Below the pieces are notes generated by a model that worked only from the letters and a program-made list of their open reading frames with translations, had not been told where the DNA came from and did not search any database. Position numbers and translations under genes: made by a program. A stretch of 64,000 bases of DNA from Hypomesus transpacificus (lineage: Eukaryota > Chordata > Actinopteri > Osmeriformes > Osmeridae), in contig NC_061067.1 of NCBI RefSeq assembly GCF_021917145.1, positions 4,359,389 to 4,423,388 on the forward strand. Reading direction: 5' to 3'. This document shows, piece after piece, positions 35,542 to 49,051 of the stretch. Numbering within the stretch: the stretch's first letter is position 1; each line of letters starts with the position of its first letter.

Positions 35542-38500
35542 CTAGGGAGAGCAGTAGCGCCCATAGAAGAGGACACTATTGGTGGGGTTGTGTCTGATGA
35601 AGAAGAGGAAGGGGTGGTCAGCGATGAAGGAGGCTGGCATCATGGCACAGCGCAACATCATGATAGCGGCCGTGGCAGCGGCGGCTTCTGTGCCCTCCTC
35701 GTTGACCTCCACAAAGGCTTTGTGGATGACTTTGGACAGGACAAGGTCGTTTCTGGGGGACATGCCTGTGGGGAAACAGATAAAAACAGGATGTTATCAT
35801 TTGAATCATCCACCTGGGAAAGTGCAGGTGTCTGATCTGAATCAATTTGTAGTTGATTAAATCATTAATAATGAATCCATTCATTTATATAGTGTAAAAG
35901 AACAGAGAATGTGCAGAGGGGAAAACGGATGAGGAAGGAAGAAAATAAAAAAAGAACAGAAGGAAGAAAGAAACACAAAGGCGTAGGCCCTACCAGAGAA
36001 GTCGGCAAGGTCCTGGTCGAAGGCATCCATCATGCCCATACTGGTCAGTTTGGCTCCCAGGTCCAGGGTCTGCTCCAACTTGAACCTGGGCAGGCCCACC
36101 TGCACTTCCTGCATATCCATCATGTCTGGTCTGGTCCATTCTATAAAGTTCTCATAGCTCAGATTCTTCTCCAGCTGGGGGGAGGGAGAGGCTTTCATTT
36201 ATACAGGTTTTCATTACTGGGGAGGGAAATAATTTGTGAGAGTATTCAAACAGAGTTCAAGGCAGCTTGTAGAGAAAGTGTTTATTTTTCCTACCTTCGT
36301 CAGACCTGTGATCTCATTGGGCAGCATGATGAGCATGCTCAGATCTTTTCCAACATAAGGTAGCTCCAGGATCTGACAGTTGGCCTCAGGGATGAATGTC
36401 AGGGGGAATTTTGTCTTCTGGTACATCATCTTCACTGGCTTGCTCTCATTCTGGAGGACAACACCAGAATTATGTGGATGGTATTAATAACAGATTCATG
36501 CAAAAGAGGTAGAACACAAGCTTTGTTCAATTCGTGGCCTTACTTGGTTGAGCTTGAACTGAGTGTCTCTTGTGTTTGTGTCCTTGAACTTCTTCTCCCA
36601 GCTGCCCTTGAAGTAGATGGCGTTGACCAGCACCAGCTTGGTCAATTCATCCAGAGTGCCCTCCTGCAGAAGATTCTGGATCTTATCTAGGGAGGAGAAA
36701 ACCATAGAATCAGACCCAACCTTTTTCATGATAACTGGCTTTTTGGTAGAGTACAGTGAATACAGCTACATCACAGTCACCTTGAGTCTGTTTCTCCACC
36801 CAGCCGTTGATGTTGAGCCTGGCCGCCTCATAATTCTTTCCAAAGTCCACAGTCTCCAGCTCTGCATCGTAGTGTTTCCTGGTGTCTCCTAGGAACTCCT
36901 GACACACGCACACAGTAGTGAGAGAAGGTTCATAACGTTATCTCTGAAATGGACACTCATTTTTAACATGGACGAGTTGCGTCCCCGCGTCCATCAAACT
37001 GCGTCTTTCACACATTCCCTTTGGCTCTCCCTCCCTTCTTCCCCCCCTCTGGATCAACACACGGGGCGTTACCTTGACAAACTCGTATGTCTGCTCTCCG
37101 TAGAGCCTGTTAGCCAGGCTGAGGGCATAGGGGGCTTCTTTCTTGTTCAGCTGAGCCATCAGCTTACTAAAGGCCACGTGCACATCATCCTTTGTCTTGT
37201 GAAGGTGCAGGGACTAAGTCAGAGAAGGAATAGGAGTCATCTTCAAAACGGCATATTATATGTTTTGAGGTTGGAGGTTTGGGACTCTGTGTGTGTGTGT
37301 GTGTGTGTGTGCACTGAAGTGTATGTAACATTTCCTCTCCATGGGTGATAAGTAACATACAGTGTGCCGCATGACAGGCAACATTTCCTGTTTATCAAGT
37401 CACTGCTCTCTGATAACATGGAAAGGGAACAAATAGCAGGCGGCCATCTTAAAATAGCTGAAAGAAAATTTAAAGAAATAGGGCACACATGCAGTCCCAG
37501 TCGACCTGTTAGTAGATGTTGTTTCCTGAGAAATCTGAAGAAGAACAGCACAGAGAGAGATATTCTGGACTATTTGTCTACATAAATTAGATTAAGTGAA
37601 CAGACGGTGTCCTGTGTCTAAGACGCTCGGCAAACACAGCCATGGAACCAATCCTCTTTGTGTAGCCATGACAACATGAAATGACAGATGTTGTAACCTG
37701 AGAGACACTTTGAACAGCTTACCTTCACCAAGAACCCCACCCTCAACTGAATTATAGACACACATGCAGGCCCCATACCCCCTTAACGCACACTTCACCT
37801 TATCTCCCAACGCCCTTTCTCCCCTGGTTAGTCATTGCTGTACTCGATTTTGTGTTAAAGTTACCATCTTGACCAGAGCCTGAGGAAGCTGGGCTCTCTG
37901 GACCTGCTGTTGCATCATCTGCTCTGGGCATGCTGCATGTTTAGCCTGCTTTGCTTTGCTGAAGCAGAGCACCTAGTGGTAGAATGGTTATGATGATGTT
38001 AAGGCGATTTTGAGTATTCAGTCATTGAAATGTATATTGGACAGTAACATTGTTAAATTGTGTTAGACATTAACAGGGTGTTTTGGGATGTGTCTGTTTG
38101 TGTGTATGTAAATGCATATTGTGTGTTTATAAGATCTGTGTGTGTTTGCGTTTTAGAAATAGAAACCAAGGCCTTTAAAGTTGAGTTACTGAACAAGTAG
38201 CATGATGGTGTGTGACCACACCTTCCATTGAAGTGTATTCCAAGGAATCCACTCTGCCCCACCATACCTTCCGTGGCCTCACCAGAGACACTCCTTTTAC
38301 AAGTCACACCCACAACATTGCCTCACCACAGCTGGGTGTGTGTCATGGTGTTCTTTGTTGGGAAAGAGGTTTGGAAATTTGACTCATTGAGAGTGTGGCT
38401 CTGCCAAAGCATGTACAGCCACACAATTCTACCCATTTGCTGAGTTTGAGATATAGTATTTGAGGGTGAGTAGTTAGTGTTTTTATAAAGCTATCTTTCA

Positions 38501-39358
38501 GGATCAGACTTGAGTACAAAGGTAAACCGAGAGTGTGGTGGAACAGACAAACTGATAAGGTTTGATTGGTTACAGCTTGTAGCTTGGCCTTTATAGCAGG
38601 GCGTTGCTATAGTAACAACTGCCCTCTTGTTAAAATCACATTTGAAAGAGACAGGACTATATTTGCTGACGGAGTGACTCTACGGTGAGTCATAAGGGAT
38701 AAACAGCACTGCATGTCTATCTGTCTTTCTCTCACATCAACTCTACAGTAGAAGTGGAAAGTTTCTAAAGACTTGTGTCAGGGTTGGCCCCATTTCTGGT
38801 TTCTATAGTGACTGAAACAACAGAGGGATGCCCATTGCTGACATGGCAGAGTGATATAACGTACAGACCTGTGTGAATTTAAAACATTTAAAACCTTCCT
38901 TACTTATGATGAGCACCCCTGGGTCAATGCCATGACCTAACGGTCCCATGGACCAAATACTTTTTTTAGGAATTGGGGTCCAGTAGACTTCACGTAACAA
39001 TCTCTGCATGCCCTAACACACAATGTTGTAATAAAGTAGGTCCAAGCACCACAATAGTCACGCTAGATTTTGTTGTCATAACAAACATATTATAAGAATA
39101 AATTCTGTGGCCTATCTTTAGATACCTACACATTGATACAGACATGCTGTTGGACTGAAACAGACCACCGAAGCCTACCAGACCCACCTCGGACATCTGT
39201 GTGGCCGTGTTGCCCCTGGCGCCGAGTAGCACCATGGCCAGAGCTGAAGAGATGCTGAGGGGAGAGAAAAAGACGTTTCCTGTTGGGGTTTCCTCTGCTA
39301 TCTTCTGGAACAGGGCCAGGGAGAAGTTGGCGTTTGCCTCGGCTAGGGGTGATGCCAT
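35542..39358 (-). CDS. serpinb1: Clade B serpin, SERPINB1-like, complete
   Basis: An intracellular serine-protease inhibitor of the leukocyte elastase inhibitor group. Coding exons on the minus strand are 39358-39188, 37972-37865, 37213-37073, 36898-36781, 36686-36544, 36450-36295, 36174-35994 and 35765-35542. All phases join, giving 413 residues. There is no signal peptide, as expected for clade B. Family words include [52 protein letters not shown] and [10 protein letters not shown]. The hinge ([11 protein letters not shown]) is intact, so it should inhibit. Aligned gap-free to the human SERPINB1 loop, P1-P1' is Arg-Cys (LRCAMMP). The second exon is an extra 36-residue Gln/Lys-rich CD-loop insertion not present in human SERPINB1. 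A 5'UTR exon ends at 39748. Exact orthology among fish SERPINB1-like copies is unsettled. Confidence 0.95.
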
Positions 39359-39747
39359 GATGATGGGCTGCTGATGGCAAGGACGGAGAGGACGGAGAGA
39401 GAGGGGTGAAGGGTGAGGAACCATTACAGCATACTACACAGGATCTGAAAAATGTGTAAAGACGTTTTTAAACCATCCAGGTTTCAAATTGAGATAGTTA
39501 GACAGGGAGTTAAGACTTCTCAAACGTAAACAATCATACTCTCAATTTTTTTCCTTAGCAAAAGGCTAAAAATAACAAGTAAAATGTTTATATATATTTT
39601 GAAACCACCTTTTTTGACAACTTAAATAACTATGTTGCGTTTCTAAAGTTTGATCGTGGGATGACCGTAGTCCTACTGTTGCTCAGCTATCTATTTGAAC
39701 AAAGTTCAAGCACTCTGGCAAAAAAAATGTCCGTCTTGAATACTCAC

Positions 39748-40381: not shown

Positions 40382-42860
40382 CTATTTTTCTTCTGTTTCT
40401 GTTGCAGTCCCACTTTCATCTTGGCCTGGCACGGATTTAGAAGCAGCCAACTTCTGGTCTCTATTCCTCCAAATTTCCTGGGAAAATTAGGAACACAATT
40501 ATTTGTATTTTACTGTTTGGTATACTATACAGAAAAGTGGAATTACTGGAAAAAAGTGAAGGGAAAGAGAAAAAAAGTGAAACTATCTTAAAATGTGACA
40601 TCACACATGCAAAGGATGGCAAATTAAATAATGCCAACGACACAAGAGCCTGTCTTCAGTGAATTGAAGACAAAAATATATCTTTCATAAACAAATAAGC
40701 CTGTACTTTGTATTGTACAGTTTTGCTACCTGTCTAATTTCCAGCAACTCTGTAAGCTCATTACAAACATGGGGTGGGATCTTCTTGTCCTTGACAATCT
40801 TCTCAATTTGATTGTAGTACTGATCCATTCTTGGCTGTGGGAATATAAATGGAAATAATTAGTCATTTATTTGTATGGACCGATAATCATAATTTATTAT
40901 ATTTATAACACGCTTTTCTCGAACCAAAGCACTGATGGATCGACACACAAAGAACCTGACACACATATGTAGGAGTTACTGTACATGCTCAGACACTCAA
41001 AACACATACACAAACACACAACTAAAAAATTGTAGACAGCCTTACCTTGGACTTGTCATAGTCCAAGTCTTTACCAACAGTGGACAGAATAGTGACCACA
41101 CAAGAAAGTGCTATGTTTTCCTTGCATTTCAGTAGTTCCACAATGCAGTCGTGGATGATAGCTTCTGTCACCATCTTTATCTTAAACAACTCAGAAATCA
41201 GTTTGACGTTTCCTACAGCCTCAGCTTGAACCTCAGATGTTATCACTCTTATTTCCTCTCTCAGTCGTATGCGGTCCTTATTCTTGATCAGATCAGAAGA
41301 AAGTTTTAGTATGCAAAGAAATTAGTATGTTTTAAAATCATGTATTATTTCCTTAAGTATTATTTGTGTTAGACTGATTGTCTTGCCTTAAAATACTGCC
41401 TCAGCTCTAGCTGAGATCAATAATGTGTACATATGCAAGGTGATGTCATACATCAACAGCGCCCTCTAACTCTTTCTGCTTCTCCCTCAAGCCCTTTGTC
41501 TTGTCTTGGTCAAAATCCACCTGGCAACGGTTTAGCAGCAATTTGCGGAAATTCACTGTCTTTCCTGGATTGTCTGAACTGGGGACTTTACGCTGGGTGA
41601 GAGACAGAAGAAGAGAGAAAGAGAGAGAGATGATTAAAATATAAAATGGGAACACATGCAGACACATATTGCCAGAATAACAGACTTACCCCCATCTGGG
41701 ATCTGCACATGTTGGCATACACCTCTGAGTTGTCAGGGTCTGAAATGGCCTTCTGATAAATCATGTCTATGATGCCTTTCAATCTCTCTTCCGTGTTAAT
41801 AGGCAAGGTCCCAACTTCTTTCATCACCTGTTGAAAGTTCTCTCTGTTCACGTGAATCAAGATGGCTTCCATTTTGGCAAACATCTCCTGCGTCTTCACC
41901 AACTCAGGGTTCTTGGGCTCTTCCTCCTATACGGGGCAAAGAACATGCAGGGAGTTTGCCATCAATCACTTTTTGCCACCAAGGTGGGAGCCAAACTTCA
42001 ATCAAAGTTGTTCAAATAAACCAACATTTGTAATTCACCCATCTGTGGCCTTCGATTGTTACCTGTCTGTCTTTCAGCAATTGGTGAAGCTCAAAGAGGA
42101 CATGCCTGTAAGGCACAGAGGAATTCTTTTCCTTGATGATTATCTCAACGTGCTTGTAGTACTGATCCATTCTGGGCTGTGGGAATATAAAGACATAACT
42201 GTGTCTTTTGTTGACAAGCAAGGCACACACATGTACACACACTAACAATGAGTAGACAGACTTGTCTTTCATGTTTTACCTTGGCCTTTCCATGGTCCAA
42301 GTCCTTTCCGATGGTAGAGAGCATAGTGGAAAAACATGCAATGGATATTGCATCCCTTCTCCTCACCAGCTTTGTTAAGAATTCATGCATTTGGGCCTCT
42401 GTCATCATGTTTAGTTTGAAGAACTCACAGATGAACTTGATGTTTCCCACTGCTTTGTCTAGAAGCTCAGAAAATACCTCTTCCAGTTTCTCTCCCTGCA
42501 GGCTGCGTTTCTCCTTCCGAGATGACATAGATAAAGGCAAACCTTTTATATATAATACTGCAGAACTACTTTTTAGTTCTTATCTGTACTTGATTGATAA
42601 TGCTTGACACTAATGACGCATGATTATCAACATTTAAACCAGTCTAAGGGTTTAAAGTATTAAAAAAAACTAATACATGTAAAAAAATAACAAGCATATG
42701 CACTTTTCCATACTTCAGTGGCAGCCTTCATCTTGTCAACAAACTCTTTGAAACACTCAGTGTGTTTCCTCTCAAAGTCTACAAGGCATCGATTCAGCAT
42801 CAGCTTGCGGAAATTCAATGTCTCTCCAGGTTTGTCTGAGCTGGGGACTTTACGCTGGGT

Positions 42861-42950
<90 letters not shown>

Positions 42951-45519
42951 TTAATCCTGGAAGCAAGACATAGTATAACACATGACATAGACATGGAGAG
43001 ACAGCCAGAGTATCAGTCTAACCAGCTGCAAACATTTGCACATTTGTGCGTAAGCCTCAGAGTCGTCAGGGTCTGAGATGGCCTTCTCATAGATGAGGTC
43101 TACGATGCCCCTCAGCCTCTCCTCCGTGGTGATGGGAAAGGTCGCCACCACTTTCATCAGTTGCGGAAATCTCTCAGGCGTCAGACGGCCCAGGATGTCC
43201 TCCATCTGTGCAAACATCTCCTTTGTCCTCACAGACTCTATGTCTTTGTAGTCATCCTAAAACAAGCCATGAATCGTATGAATAAGGATGCTTCAGAGAT
43301 ACCCCAGATTCATTACAATATCTTGTCACTGTTTTCTTACCAGCTCATGTTCCTCCACTACTCTATCAGCAAGGGAAGACAGCGCTAAAGAGAGAGGGAC
43401 AGAATCCAAATATCTCCATCAAACTGTGTAGTGCTGTGTTATGAATAGGAACCTATTCATGAGTAGATTGTAAGAATGGTGTGAATGGGGATGCTTACTG
43501 TGAGGTTCTAGCAGATGTTTAGCTGTTGGGGAAAAAGACAGATAAAAGTGACTGTGAAGGAACCTCCCTCCAACTCATGTGTACTCACACACCTGCAAAT
43601 AAACACACTCACACGCACCTTCTAAGAAGAAATCCTTGAGTTCAATGTCGAAGCTCATTTCAAGTTGCTTCTGCAGTCTGTAGACACTTCTTTGCACCAT
43701 GCCAAAGGCAGAGGTGATGCTGGGTATCTTCTACTAGCAGACACAGACAGAAAGACCAACCACTTCATTGTACGACATGAGTAACAGAAGTTTGTCACAC
43801 ATACAAAAATGGCACTATCTGCTTTACCGAGCCTGAGTAACCAGCCAGGGACAAACCAACAACATTCTGATTAAATTATAATTCAGCCTTGCCTAAAATA
43901 CCGCCAAAATAAGGCCTTCCTGCTTGTTTGGGGGTATACCACCTGAAGGAGTTGCATTTATGAGAGGTTAAAATACCAAACTTTTGGGGTAAACGATCTT
44001 GCTCCACCGGCAGAAGAATATTTTAGATAAAGTAAATATCTCTTCAAAAGAGGCCTCTTCACATGCACGCACCTGGAAGAAGTGTGGGCGTTCATCTAAG
44101 GGAGCCAGTGGCTTATGCTCCGCCTCTGCTCTTCTCAGTTCTACAATCTCCGCCTCCAGGGTTTGCAGGTGACCCTCAGCCTCCCTCAACATGGCCCCCT
44201 CCTGGGCTTGGATACGTTCTCTCAGTTTAGAGGTCGTTCTCTCCACCAACTCCGTCAAGAACTTCTCAAAGTCCTCCACAGTAACTTGGGTGGAACGCTG
44301 TTTGGAGAGAAATCCAACTGTTAGAGACCATAGTGGTTCATCCTTTTAGCAACTGTCTAGTGGAGAGCCGTGTGGATTATCTGTTTTGTGATGGTGCCCT
44401 CTAAACCATTATAGATTCCTTGACAAATCACTGATCTAACATGGATGTTGTTGTTTTTATTATTGTTAATATCCCACCACCACCATCCCTTTTTGGAGGA
44501 ATTTCGTATTTATTTCAAGTACTAATTCAATACAGCAACATGCTGTATTGATGCAAGATGCAAGCTGCAGCATGCCAGGCACTGTCAGAAAGTACGGCAA
44601 ATGATTGAACGGCTTAGAGGCCTCTTGTAGAGAAATGTATGGTTTTTACAAATACAGCATGACTGGATAGTTAACAGCTGTCTAGGGAAAGCATGCTGTC
44701 AGCTGCTCAGTTATGTTAGATCGAGGTTGCCTTCAGGAAGGGAGTAAAGGGTGCATTTGAATAACTCATACAGAACCACACCTTCTATACACAAGTCTGA
44801 CCTTCAGAGATTCCATCTCATCTTTCAGGTTCTTTAGCTCCTCCTCTCTCTCTTCAATGATGTCATTGTACGTTCTGGGGGGGTCACTCTTTTTTTTATG
44901 CCGGTGACCCTACAGTGGAGGGGAGGGTAACAAGTGATTAGAATTGAACTTGGCAATAGCATGGTCTAGGTAGAAATTTGAATAAGTTTGACTCACTAGC
45001 TATAACACATTGATGCTCCCACACTGAACCTACTACAATACAGTTCCAACAGCTTTCGCTGTTTACAGTTAATGCACCGCAGTCTAACCACACCTTTTTA
45101 GACTTCTTTTCTGAAGCGGGTCCTGAGTTGTCCCCCTCAGGGTGACCATCAGCACACTCTGTGCGAACATTGAACTCGTCGCTGAGGACAGAGGGACAGA
45201 CACTCTGTTGGGTCGAAGGGCTGTCCTTCCCAATGACTGGTGGCTTGTTGTCGGTTTTTGAGCAGAGCTGAGTATCATTCTTTGCAGGGGATACACGTTC
45301 TTCTCTTCCAGTCTCTTCAGTTACCTTGATGACAGGTTGTAAAGTGGATGCCCGACCGCACTGAGGGCAGCAGCTGTCACTTTGATCATGCTGATCCCAG
45401 TACTTATTGAAACAGACCTTACAGTGAGTGTGTCCACACTGGGTTGTTATAGGATCCTTTGGTACATCTAGACAGATGGGACATTTTGACTCATTTAAAA
45501 GCTTTCCTACTTCAGCCAT
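40382..45519 (-). CDS. RING / coiled-coil / tandem MIF4G protein (TRIM-like, eIF4G-derived), complete
   Basis: I know no named gene with this architecture. Exons on the minus strand are 45519-45094, 44909-44802, 44297-44073, 43730-43619, 43522-43499, 43384-43341, 43256-43023, 42854-42714, 42513-42280, 42176-42063, 41926-41690, 41592-41452, 41282-41046, 40834-40730 and 40477-40382. All phases join, giving 825 residues. Residues 13-54 are a C3HC4 RING (CPICLDVP, CGHTHC, CPQCG), as in E3 ubiquitin ligases. Residues 55-142 are a polar linker. Residues 143-260 are a Glu/Lys/Arg-rich coiled coil, and the short exons to 313 resemble TRIM linker exons. Residues 314-554 and 555-825 are two MIF4G domains like that of eIF4G (FRKLLLNRC, GNIKFICEFFKL, TIGKDLD, PRMDQYY), the scaffold that binds eIF4A. 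No eIF4E-binding YxxxxL-phi site, B-box, B30.2 or MA3 domain is seen. The upstream ISRE/GAS pair suggests interferon control. Weakest junction: the acceptor before 42513 has a poor pyrimidine tract. Confidence 0.92.
40730..43256 (-). repeat. Tandem duplication of a four-exon MIF4G block
   Basis: Coding exons 7-10 measure 234, 141, 234 and 114 bases; exons 11-14 measure 237, 141, 237 and 105. All begin and end in phase 0, and corresponding exons encode corresponding parts of MIF4G. Exons 8 and 12 both begin RKVPSSD, and exons 10 and 14 both begin with PRMDQYY. Even the splice context (CTTTACGCTGGGTGAGAG at 42846 and 41584, plus strand) is nearly identical. This is direct evidence of an unequal duplication inside the gene. 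The copies have since diverged: the second resembles eIF4G more in its FRKLLLNRCQ and LREKQKELE words. Confidence 0.93.
42867..42941. repeat. (AG)n microsatellite in the RING-MIF4G intron
   Basis: An AG run of about 75 bases in the intron between coding exons 7 and 8, starting just after the acceptor side of exon 8. Confidence 0.97.
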
Positions 45520-46778: not shown

Positions 46779-49051
46779 ATGGCTGACGAGTGGAAGGAGT
46801 GCATGGACCACTGTTTGGAGGTGACCAAAGAAGCGGGGAAGGTTAGTTCGTTTCAGGTCTGGGACACTGAAATACTACTGAGACAAGACTCACACAGTAC
46901 ATCCACCGTGTTACTCCAACATGTTTCTTTCACCCTTTAAAGGGTGAAGATTGAGTTGAAGCCTATAGCTAGCTAGATGGAATCTAAATGATGCGTCTGT
47001 ATTACAGATACCTCCATTTAATCAGCAACGTAGCTTGCATAGACTGCATTAGTCAAATTGTAGGATTTCCATTAATCTGAGCAACACCTTTCCAAGACTA
47101 ACCTACAGGCTGATGCCACTATTTCCTTGACTTTGCGGCTTGTCAGATGATCCGTGCAGCGCTCCAGAAGGACATAGCCATCATGCAGAAGAGCTCTCCG
47201 GTGGATCTGGTGACTGAGACGGACCAGAAGGTGGAGCAGCTCATCATCTCCTCCATCAAGGAGAAATATCCCACACACAGGTATCCCAGACCCCCCCCCC
47301 CACTTCAGCAACACTAGAAACACCACAGTAGAAAATGGTCACTCATTGTTCTTCCTGTGTTTCTTACATTTTGAATTGGGGTAAGGGTGAGGTGGGAGTG
47401 ATTACTAATGATGTATTACTTAGTAGTTGAGCATTCATCATCATAAGCATACAAACATACATTTTTAGACAGAAACAGATGTTTTAAAAAGGTAACCCTC
47501 TCCCCTGTATGTCTGCCTAAGGTGTATTTGGTCTCTGATGCACTTCCCCTCCTCTCCTTCTTCCTCCAGTTTCATAGGGGAGGAGTCAGTAGCCGCTGGT
47601 GACCCCAGCATCCTGACAGACAACCCCACCTGGATCATCGACCCTATCGATGGAACTACCAACTTTGTACACAGGTGGAGGGGGGTGTTATGACTGGTTA
47701 AGCCTTGGACATTGAGTACCCTCATCACTATCTGGGGCTTTTCAGTGTGTTCATGTGGGCATTAGCAGCACAGCGGTGTGGCTATCTTTAATGAAGCTCC
47801 CCTTAGAGCTGACCCCTCGGCCTGGGAGGAAGAGGAGCCGCTAATAGAAATGGATTCTGCCGCTGCCCAGATCCTTAAGGAGTTGTAGCCTACCACCCTC
47901 CAACTTCTTGACTGTAAATTCTCTGTGGAGGATACAATCTATTCCATTTCGTTTTATTCTATTCCATCTTCCAACTTTGTGTTCCCCTTCTTGTGTTTCT
48001 CAGGTTCCCTTTTGTGTCTGTGTCAATTGGCTTTGCTGTGAAGAAAGAGGTATGTTAAGCATTTATCATGTGTGAGGACATCAGTCTCCATTGACTACTT
48101 CTAAAAGTCACCCCTTGGTAAAACTGTTTAAGTCTTTGACTCCAGGCTGTTTTTGTTTTGGTGGAATTCAGATAGAGTTTGGTATCATTTACAGCTGCAT
48201 AGAGGATAAGATGTACACTGCTCGGAAAGGGAATGGAGCATTCTGTGATGGAGTCCCCATCAAGGTGTCTGGGCAGGAAGGTAGGGTGTACAGCAGTCCT
48301 TTAAAGAAAAATACATGTGTAACTGAGGTGTTGTGTAAGTAAGTTGACTGCTTTCCTTTCTTGTGTAGACATCACTAAGTCCTTGGTGCTCACGGAGATG
48401 GGTTTCAAGAAGGACCCTGAGCACTTCAAAACAATGATGGCCAACATCAACACCATCCTGTCCATTCCTGTCCATGGGTAAGCAGGGCAGAGCTGCACAC
48501 CTGGGACCTGTATCATAATTCATTCATTGAACGTGTTGTTAAACTTAATTTTTTGTTTTGGGGGAGTTTGTGTCAATTTGTGGGCTGCCACGATCTCTTT
48601 CTGCATGATCTTTCAATCAGTCAACCCATCGACCAATAAATCAATTGATTAATAAAATCCTAGGATTCGTTCACCGGGCAGCGCGGCGGTAAACATGTGT
48701 CTGGTTGCGTGCGGCGCGGCGGACGCCTACTACCACATGGGCATCCACTGCTGGGACATGGCAGCCGGCGCCGCCATCATCAGAGAGTCAGGCGGAGTCA
48801 TCATGGACATCTCAGGTGAGGAGTCACTTTGATTCAATTTACGATTCACTTAAACTCAATACCTCACCTAAATGTCTCCTCAGTTGAGTAGCTGTTTTCA
48901 TGAGGATCTCTCTGTGGCCTGTGTGTCTACAGGAGGACAGTTTGACCTGATGTCCAGGAGGCTGATCATCGCTAGCAGCAGGACCATCGCAGAACACATC
49001 GCCTCTAAAGTTACTGTGTTCCCCTGTGGACGGGATGACTTGGAGGACTAG
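46779..49051 (+). CDS. impa1: Inositol monophosphatase 1, complete
   Basis: This cytosolic Mg-dependent, lithium-sensitive phosphatase hydrolyses inositol monophosphates to free myo-inositol for phosphatidylinositol recycling. Coding exons are 46779-46841, 47147-47280, 47570-47674, 48004-48049, 48172-48280, 48369-48477, 48664-48815 and 48933-49051. All junctions are in phase and give 278 residues, against 277 in human IMPA1. Signature 1 ([14 protein letters not shown]) and signature 2 ([16 protein letters not shown]) are intact. The upstream metal ligand is in FIGEES, and the early [10 protein letters not shown] word is conserved. The start is the first ATG after the acceptor at 46761, in a good context (CACCATGG). 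Nothing is broken or unusual. IMPA2 is a possible alternative, but the start [10 protein letters not shown] and the length favour IMPA1. Confidence 0.97.

Follow-up and report, generated by a model that had tools for sequence, protein, structure and literature searches.

A delta smelt gene that joins a TRIM-derived RING and coiled coil to two eIF4G-type MIF4G domains

Does a single gene of the delta smelt (Hypomesus transpacificus) encode a TRIM-like RING protein that carries two MIF4G domains of eIF4G, and what might such a protein do? The gene lies on the minus strand, from 45519 to 40382, of the window (the whole 64,000-nucleotide stretch of DNA that was analysed), and its 15 exons join in phase to encode 825 residues (Table 1). 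All 14 introns have GT-AG ends, the phases are continuous, a start codon is present, and the single stop codon is terminal. The coordinates, exon number, and length given by an earlier sequence-only reading were borne out, as was its claim that a RING, a TRIM-like coiled coil, and two MIF4G domains belong to one gene. At the sequence level, the gene is a genuine TRIM-eIF4G fusion. The predicted protein P0002 from the same species is identical, letter for letter, to residues 214–825 and does not contain the RING; the sole smelt isoform in the database (X2) begins inside exon 3. The orthologue from rainbow smelt (Osmerus mordax, P0001) contains every part and matches with 98% coverage and 90% identity. 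The full layout is also present in an 870-residue frame (P0003) on a contig of 2,705 bases, about 96% of which is coding, and in an 843-residue frame (P0004) on a contig of 2,888 bases, about 88% of which is coding. Because both contigs are short, intronless, and mostly coding, they look like transcripts.

Table 1. Exons of the delta smelt fusion gene, with positions in the window; substitutions are in human eIF4G1 numbering.
Feature	Position	Strand	Evidence
Exon 1: ATG at 45519, RING (residues 13–54, about 45358–45483) and linker, residues 1–142, without B-box	45094..45519	-	Pfam; PDB 5fer 1.3e-9; 8/8 zinc ligands
Exon 2: residues 143–178, TRIM coiled coil begins	44802..44909	-	GT-AG, in phase; TRIM_CC 160–264
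Exon 3: residues 179–253, TRIM coiled coil; P0002 starts at M214 here	44073..44297	-	Splice/phase; Pfam; P0002
Exon 4: TRIM coiled-coil region ends	43619..43730	-	Splice/phase; Pfam; in P0002
Exon 5: linker exon, 24 bases	43499..43522	-	Splice/phase; in P0002
Exon 6: linker leading to MIF4G-1	43341..43384	-	Splice/phase; in P0002
Exon 7: MIF4G-1 part 1, residues 314–391; R764Q, S767D, Q783V	43023..43256	-	Pfam; residue mapping
Exon 8: MIF4G-1 part 2, residues 392–438	42714..42854	-	Splice/phase; intron place matches smelt eIF4G
Exon 9: MIF4G-1 part 3, residues 439–516	42280..42513	-	Pfam; splice/phase; intron places
Exon 10: MIF4G-1 part 4, residues 517–554	42063..42176	-	Intron places; splice/phase
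Exon 11: MIF4G-2 part 1, residues 555–633; R764K, S767A, T773N, Q783E	41690..41926	-	Pfam; residue mapping
Exon 12: MIF4G-2 part 2, residues 634–680	41452..41592	-	Intron places; splice/phase
Exon 13: MIF4G-2 part 3, residues 681–759	41046..41282	-	Pfam; intron places; splice/phase
Exon 14: MIF4G-2 part 4, residues 760–794	40730..40834	-	Intron places; splice/phase
Exon 15: C-terminal tail, residues 795–825, and stop codon	40382..40477	-	Splice/phase; identical in P0002

The domain search suggested with the sequence-only reading was run with Pfam on a model of 808 residues, which lacks exon 15 and has its end read into the intron, and identified a RING (PF15227, 3e-8), a TRIM_CC coiled coil (PF25600, 3.9e-16), and MIF4G in two stretches (PF02854, 1.4e-62). 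The RING is of the C3HC4 type, and the best PDB match of exon 1 is human TRIM25 (PDB: 5fer). No B-box was found in the smelt protein, either as a Pfam family at E ≤ 1 or as a motif match, and the protein is therefore a TRIM-derived RING-coiled-coil protein rather than a full tripartite TRIM. All the zinc ligands of the smelt RING are kept, and the linchpin position is occupied by Gly in delta smelt and Ser in Osmerus, whereas it is Arg or Lys in the TRIM25-like fish relatives shown. TRIM32, with a linchpin Ser, is reported to be active, and TRIM6 and TRIM22, with Gln, to be pseudoligases (PMC11992055). We are unsure whether the smelt RING has ligase activity. The zinc-binding His is missing in both lgn relatives and in four of the five salmonid two-MIF4G proteins shown, and the fifth has lost a Cys ligand instead of the His. 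Because the RING ligands of these relatives are broken, ligase action cannot be the function common to them. In the AlphaFold model of the full-length Osmerus protein, the RING is not folded (pLDDT below 32 through residue 150), and residues 160–241 form a long helix (pLDDT about 61–70); when exon 1 was modelled alone, residues 11–40 reached a pLDDT of about 80. The front belongs to a large group of fish TRIMs, with at least 74 match segments for P0057 listed in the smelt genome.

Both MIF4G units match human eIF4GII (PDB: 1hu3; 4.5e-65 for MIF4G-1 and 4.4e-74 for MIF4G-2). The three inner introns and the end boundary of each unit match positions in smelt eIF4G loci, the inner introns being seen in three of these loci and the end boundary in two, and intron-containing genomic DNA was therefore captured. 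Neither MA3 nor W2 was found as a Pfam family in the smelt model. In eIF4G, the eIF3-binding stretch is located after MIF4G; only 31 residues follow MIF4G-2 in the smelt protein, which leaves no space for it. The claim that there is no eIF4E site was confirmed for the smelt protein, in which the search for the YxxxxL-hydrophobic motif gave no match, but does not extend to the wider set of fusions, since P0046, P0050, and P0060 from other fish retain the motif YDREFLL.

The check for both domains in one predicted protein of other fish gave a positive answer. Protein searches, covering the best 120 of 439, of 7343, and of 3234 matches, identified TRIM-eIF4G fusions in several fish orders, with differing TRIM fronts, eIF4G donors, and junctions. 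Trees were calculated from hand-picked sets of 73 (first tree), 47, and 42 (front tree) rows, and one of the 23 chosen SPRY proteins was dropped from the front tree, as it had no RING motif. In ten tests (five of MIF4G and five of fronts, p uncorrected) of groups chosen after the first tree, the placement of all fused MIF4G domains in one clade was rejected (p-AU 0.002), as was that of all fused fronts (p-AU 2e-47). A single origin of the fish fusions is thus rejected. The groupings of carp with icefish kin (p 0.131) and of the smelt clade with icefish kin (p 0.226) in the MIF4G tree, and of the smelt clade with anchovies in the front tree (p 0.196), were not rejected, and the smelt-plus-salmonid front group has a support of only 85/89; therefore, we put the number of captures at no fewer than two, and more are likely. 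Gene conversion may have exchanged the fronts, in which case the front tree would give too high a count. No second fusion was seen in the smelt genome when the 23 MIF4G and 74 TRIM matches listed were compared by eye, and the two kinds of matches are never less than about 1.7 Mb apart on one contig. In the TRIM search of the genome, 71 of 319 candidates were scored, and the diverged RING exon of the window itself was not among the matches listed, so that a diverged second fusion could be missed. The C37 locus is a diverged eIF4G-like gene in which no RING was seen with five queries.

The contacts of human eIF4GI with eIF4A are putative and modelled on a yeast structure; the substitution S767D abolishes the binding of eIF4A1, and Q779D with Q783D also fail (PMC7470955). 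According to sequence mapping, MIF4G-1 keeps two and MIF4G-2 one of the six putative contact residues, and MIF4G-1 naturally carries S767D. The mapping weakens an eIF4A-scaffold mechanism for the smelt gene, and the MIF4G domains as an eIF4A scaffold, as put forward previously, are not supported here. When canonical rows were compared with smelt-clade rows, which were assigned by hand, include many near-identical salmonid isoforms, and count sequences rather than events, S767 was kept in 72/74 versus 0/84, Q783 in 74/74 versus 0/84, and R764 in 39/74 (a further 33 have Lys) versus 0/84 (three have Lys). The first tree contains 29 clade rows. MIF4G matches that span at most 190 profile positions were excluded from these counts, and P0002, which is identical to the window sequence, and P0035 were omitted from the clade rows. 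Of the RNA contacts of human HEAT-1 (PMC10462655), the two smelt copies keep 6/8 and 7/8 (13/16 together), and the difference from the kept eIF4A contacts has a Fisher p of 0.006. Against all other eIF4G-invariant columns, the eIF4A residues differ with a p of only 0.07, and their loss may thus partly be general drift. Within the clade, the RNA contact D919 is Asp in only 44/84 rows, and K923 is kept in 55/84.

We propose that, in the smelt protein, a TRIM chassis carries a recognition module derived from eIF4G and that the protein is probably antiviral. The MIF4G/HEAT-1 pair takes the place of a B30.2 targeting domain, and the protein would neither support nor arrest eIF4F through eIF4A. A coiled-coil dimer would display four eIF4G-like surfaces, which may grip eIF4G binders other than eIF4A, either viral leaders and other structured RNA or the proteins with which viruses seize eIF4G. 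Both EMCV IRES RNA and norovirus VPg are reported to bind human eIF4G HEAT-1 (PMC10462655, PMC4703368). The bound targets could be blocked by decoy and clustering, and by ubiquitination where the RING is sound. The complete proposal, of a TRIM25-like front with an eIF4G HEAT-1 pair that has lost its eIF4A face and acts as a decoy against viral RNA or proteins, has in our estimate slightly less than an even chance of being correct. More tentatively, two or more captures, probably four or more, may have joined TRIM25-like or TRIM35-like fronts to eIF4G3 (tunas, anchovies) or eIF4G1 (icefish kin) for antiviral TRIM targeting, with the smelt-salmon-pike clade shedding eIF4A and largely keeping the RNA side, so that viral RNA or proteins could be captured and host translation left unharmed. 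An ISRE-like site with one mismatch is positioned 77–88 bases upstream of the ATG; however, the interferon-type promoter motif has 7 sites in the window versus 6.5 expected by chance, and the site is therefore no evidence for an interferon promoter.

The retention of most RNA-contact residues and the broken RINGs of the relatives would also suit a regulator of translation or mRNA with no immune role, in which a coiled-coil dimer uses the MIF4G pair to hold specific host mRNAs and the RING is a remnant. The identities to P0003 point in the same direction, with the MIF4G domains (175/239 and 161/240) somewhat more conserved than the RING (38/60) and much more than the linker (41/95); the coiled coil has 113/160 identical residues. 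However, the front comes from the large fish TRIM group described above, and recurrent fusion across orders would suit an arms race better than housekeeping. We consider such a regulator rather unlikely.

Since the MIF4G of eIF4G is a platform for eIF4A, an active TRIM ligase might instead bind eIF4A or eIF4F through it, ubiquitinate or sequester them, and shut down translation. The other fish fusions examined keep S767 in 21/23 rows and Q783 in 19/23, and the contacts being largely kept and the eIF4E motif being present in three proteins, this mechanism could fit the carp, anchovy, milkfish, and tuna proteins. In the smelt protein, the contacts are altered in both copies (S767D, Q783V, and R764Q in the first; S767A, T773N, and Q783E in the second), and S767D by itself is sufficient to abolish binding in human eIF4GI (PMC7470955), which makes the mechanism improbable for this gene. 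A decaying gene with no selected function would account for the lineage-specific occurrence, the absent B-box, and the linchpin residues of delta smelt and Osmerus, but it is a little less credible still, as all 15 exons are open, the splice sites are intact, MIF4G-1 is 93% identical to that of Osmerus (223/239) and 73% to that of P0003, and the transcript-like P0003 contig retains the whole frame. The false merging of two adjacent genes by gene prediction, which the start of isoform X2 within exon 3 might suggest, is very improbable, because X2 still links both MIF4G units with some of the coiled coil, the layout is complete in Osmerus, and all parts stand without introns on two contigs of 2.7–2.9 kb.

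The assertion that no family with such a layout has been described agrees with the literature listings, which cover at most 20 of 25 and 20 of 209 matching papers in the larger searches and show no description of one. According to the available text of a study of the zebrafish and pufferfish TRIM repertoire (PMC3137616), C-terminal exons were lost or gained in fish TRIMs; that text contains zero occurrences each of initiation factor, MIF4G, and eIF4G. By term search, eIF4G is absent from a paper on common-carp TRIMs (PMC10048487). Two other matches were set aside: PMC12294397, which in its available part deals with another MIF4G gene (NOM1) and TRIM16/21, and PMC5463356, an unrelated paper that gives PPIA as TRIMCyp-similar. 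If our proposal is true, the fish fusions would be the second natural repeated case, after TRIMCyp, of a virus-exploited host protein placed on a TRIM chassis, here aimed at translation, and a role of viral leaders or VPg-like proteins in driving the fusions could be tested. Natural HEAT-1 variants appear to split eIF4A binding from RNA binding, and database names such as "eIF4G1/3-like" or "TRIM25-like" can hide TRIM-eIF4G fusions in fish.

The smelt protein is similar to TRIM25 and fish TRIM25-like proteins in its RING and TRIM_CC coiled coil, and its front nests among TRIM25-like proteins in the tree; unlike TRIM25, it has neither a B-box nor a PRY-SPRY domain and carries two MIF4G domains instead. 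It shares the MIF4G/HEAT-1 domain, in duplicate, with eIF4G1 and eIF4G3, but differs from them in the absence of the eIF4E motif, MA3, and W2, in having next to nothing past MIF4G, and in its replaced eIF4A contacts. The closest parallel in logic is TRIMCyp (TRIM5-cyclophilin A) of primates, tree shrews, and rodents, in which the usual C-terminal domain of a TRIM front was swapped, on multiple occasions, for a whole host domain that a virus grips; independent origins in New World primates, Old World primates, and rodents and a retrotransposed CypA have been described. The smelt protein likewise combines a TRIM front with a host domain that, in human eIF4G, viruses bind; in TRIMCyp the targeting end of the TRIM is a host protein whose binding a virus needs, and the proposal for the smelt protein follows this logic. 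In contrast to TRIMCyp, the smelt fusion captured eIF4G exons together with their introns, not a retrotransposed copy, lacks the B-box, and has a putative antiviral role.

The minus-strand TRIM-eIF4G fusion gene in the window consists of 15 exons with phase kept throughout and encodes 825 residues, exactly as given by the sequence-only reading, and all 14 introns have GT-AG borders. The C3HC4 RING and the two MIF4G stretches proposed in that reading are recovered by Pfam, together with the TRIM coiled-coil family PF25600; no B-box is found by Pfam. In sequence comparisons with solved structures, the RING exon comes closest to human TRIM25, and both MIF4G domains come closest to human eIF4GII and eIF4G1.

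Coordinates of the fusion gene, nearby features in the window, and a related locus elsewhere in the smelt genome
Feature	Location	Strand	Remark
TRIM-eIF4G fusion gene	ATG 45519, stop 40382	-	
Long (GA)n microsatellite	~42868-42941		Intron between exons 7 and 8, within MIF4G-1
Serpin gene	35881-39433	-	Neighbour of the fusion
Inositol monophosphatase (IMPA1-like) gene	~46780-47700	+	Neighbour of the fusion
L029 and L030, diverged eIF4G-like gene	G000:C37 ~534.8-541 kb		MIF4G and weak later-domain matches

The rainbow smelt (Osmerus mordax) protein P0001 contains every part of the layout and is 90% identical to the model. The predicted Hypomesus transpacificus protein P0002, labelled isoform X2, is identical to model residues 214-825; its start falls within exon 3, and it is therefore without the RING. 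Two "lgn" relatives, P0003 and P0004, are 65% identical and are encoded by contigs of 2,705 and 2,888 bases. Because about 96% and 88% of these contigs are coding, they are most likely assembled transcripts bearing all parts, and they provide indirect evidence for a single transcript of the whole fusion.

A tblastn search of the smelt genome finds three close eIF4G loci, L024-L026, together with L027, which is more distant and which we guess to be DAP5, and the diverged eIF4G-like locus on contig C37, where the queries used revealed no RING. Both window units have exon ends matching introns of L024-L026: one following CLMG or CLAT, one in the loop that precedes the ERxxLxEELE stretch, and one between KAK and PRMDQY; a boundary after DLR plus one residue is found in two of the three loci. 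The boundaries concerned are all phase 0 in the window. The two units are 50% identical, with exon-by-exon identities of 44/78, 25/47, 32/78, and 20/38. The shared intron places and the exon-by-exon match of the units indicate that genomic eIF4G exons were captured and that the unit is present twice in the gene.

The combination of RING and MIF4G in one protein, whose absence from other fish would have refuted the sequence-only reading, occurs in several fish groups among the matches listed. A strict motif finds a RING or B-box in 26 of the 164 MIF4G-matching proteins listed, and further ones have a TRIM coiled coil alone or a broken RING. The hosts of the 26 are rainbow smelt, salmonids, carps, milkfish, anchovies, tunas and pomfret, icefish kin, and one freshwater mussel. 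The icefish-kin fusions have a B-box and lack a RING in the predicted protein, and the first MIF4G of the salmonid proteins with two such domains is N-terminal to the coiled coil. The 1531-residue P0270 of the freshwater mussel Potamilus streckersoni, with predicted RING, two MIF4G, MA3, and W2, may be either a non-vertebrate RING-eIF4G fusion or an annotation merge. Of the mackerel (Scomber scombrus) eIF4G3-like proteins P0233 and P0238, one has MIF4G, MA3, W2, and PRY-SPRY, and the other a TRIM-like coiled coil followed by MIF4G. In P0044, P0035, P0171, and P0235, fish eIF4G-like proteins that lack a RING, MIF4G is present two or three times, so the expansion of MIF4G in fish exceeds the TRIM fusions.

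A single origin of all fusions is rejected by both the MIF4G tree (p-AU 0.002) and the tree of the N-terminal TRIM fronts (2e-47). In the MIF4G trees, tuna and anchovy domains lie within eIF4G3 (100/99), and icefish-kin domains group with percomorph eIF4G1 (97/86). Those of carp and milkfish are not part of eIF4G3 and fall among eIF4G1 rows that the trees leave unresolved; smelt, salmon, and pike domains form a separate single clade (100/99). Grouping carp with tuna (0.0013) or tuna with icefish kin (0.0175) is rejected; grouping icefish kin with carp (0.131) or with the smelt clade (0.226) is not. The front tree rejects the latter two groupings (9e-61 and 7e-11), as well as smelt clade with carp (5e-54), and does not reject smelt clade with anchovies (0.196). 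It groups the smelt front with the salmonid two-MIF4G fusions at 100/99 and nests the carp fronts among carp and catfish SPRY proteins. Over 290 residues, tuna and pomfret fronts share 78-82% identity with the SPRY protein P0222; their identity to P0232, named TRIM35-like, is 74-76%. Icefish-kin fronts share 74-82% identity with percomorph SPRY proteins from the TRIM25-like group. The junctions, read off the sequences, differ: in carps and tunas they lie near the B30.2 start, which we take to be marked by an LDPxTAHP-type motif. Milkfish and anchovies have them upstream of the eIF4E motif, and smelt and salmonids immediately ahead of MIF4G. These sequences argue firmly for at least two captures, and at least four are likely.

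All eight zinc ligands of the RING are present in delta and rainbow smelt. The ligand histidine is replaced by arginine in P0003 and P0004. Of the five salmonid proteins shown, four have glutamine in its place and the fifth has lost a cysteine. The linchpin position, after the last cysteine, is Gly or Ser in the two smelts and Arg or Lys in the TRIM25-like fish relatives shown. Among human TRIMs whose linchpin is not basic, PMC11992055 describes at least one active ligase as well as pseudoligases. This mixed activity and the broken ligands of the relatives imply that ligase activity is possible in the smelt protein and cannot be the function common to the clade.

The sequence-only reading suggested that the MIF4G pair, as an eIF4G-type scaffold, could target eIF4A among other things; this role is weakened for the window gene, in which most putative eIF4A contacts are replaced. 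These contacts, modelled on a yeast structure in PMC7470955, are R764, S767, T773, Q779, Q783, and D982 (human eIF4G1 numbering), and S767D, or Q779D with Q783D, is reported there to abolish eIF4A1 binding. The corresponding residues are Q, D, T, Q, V, and E in copy 1, which thus carries S767D, and K, A, N, Q, E, and E in copy 2. S767 is kept in 0 of 84 clade domain rows versus 72 of 74 canonical rows, and Q783 in 0 of 84 versus 74 of 74. Of the eight HEAT-1 contacts with EMCV IRES RNA, taken from section 6 of PMC10462655, whose residue numbers are one lower as deduced from the residue letters, copy 1 keeps six, with conservative D919E and K926R, and copy 2 seven, the change being K923E. H918, a residue of the norovirus VPg patch according to PMC4703368, is kept in both copies. 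Compared with the RNA sites, the loss of eIF4A contacts is significant (p 0.006); set against every other eIF4G-invariant column, it is no more than suggestive (p 0.07). The residue comparison in both copies and the clade indicates that the predicted eIF4A face has been lost, with most of the RNA-side face retained. S767 and Q783 are mostly kept in the other fish fusions (23 rows), three proteins of which retain the eIF4E motif; these fusions may work in a different mode.

No description of a MIF4G-TRIM fusion family was found in the open-licence literature, among the matches listed. In a study of how salmon resist infectious salmon anaemia virus (PMC8117317), an EIF4G1-named gene is among those closest to the Ssa13 resistance QTL, and resistant salmon, mainly two fish, show higher levels of a TRIM25-named gene. 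Since salmonid fusions carry both kinds of name, either of these genes might be a TRIM-eIF4G fusion. The nearest parallel in logic is TRIMCyp, the fusions of TRIM5 with cyclophilin A, in which a virus-gripped host domain has repeatedly taken the place of the TRIM targeting end; we infer that the fish fusions could have an antiviral role.
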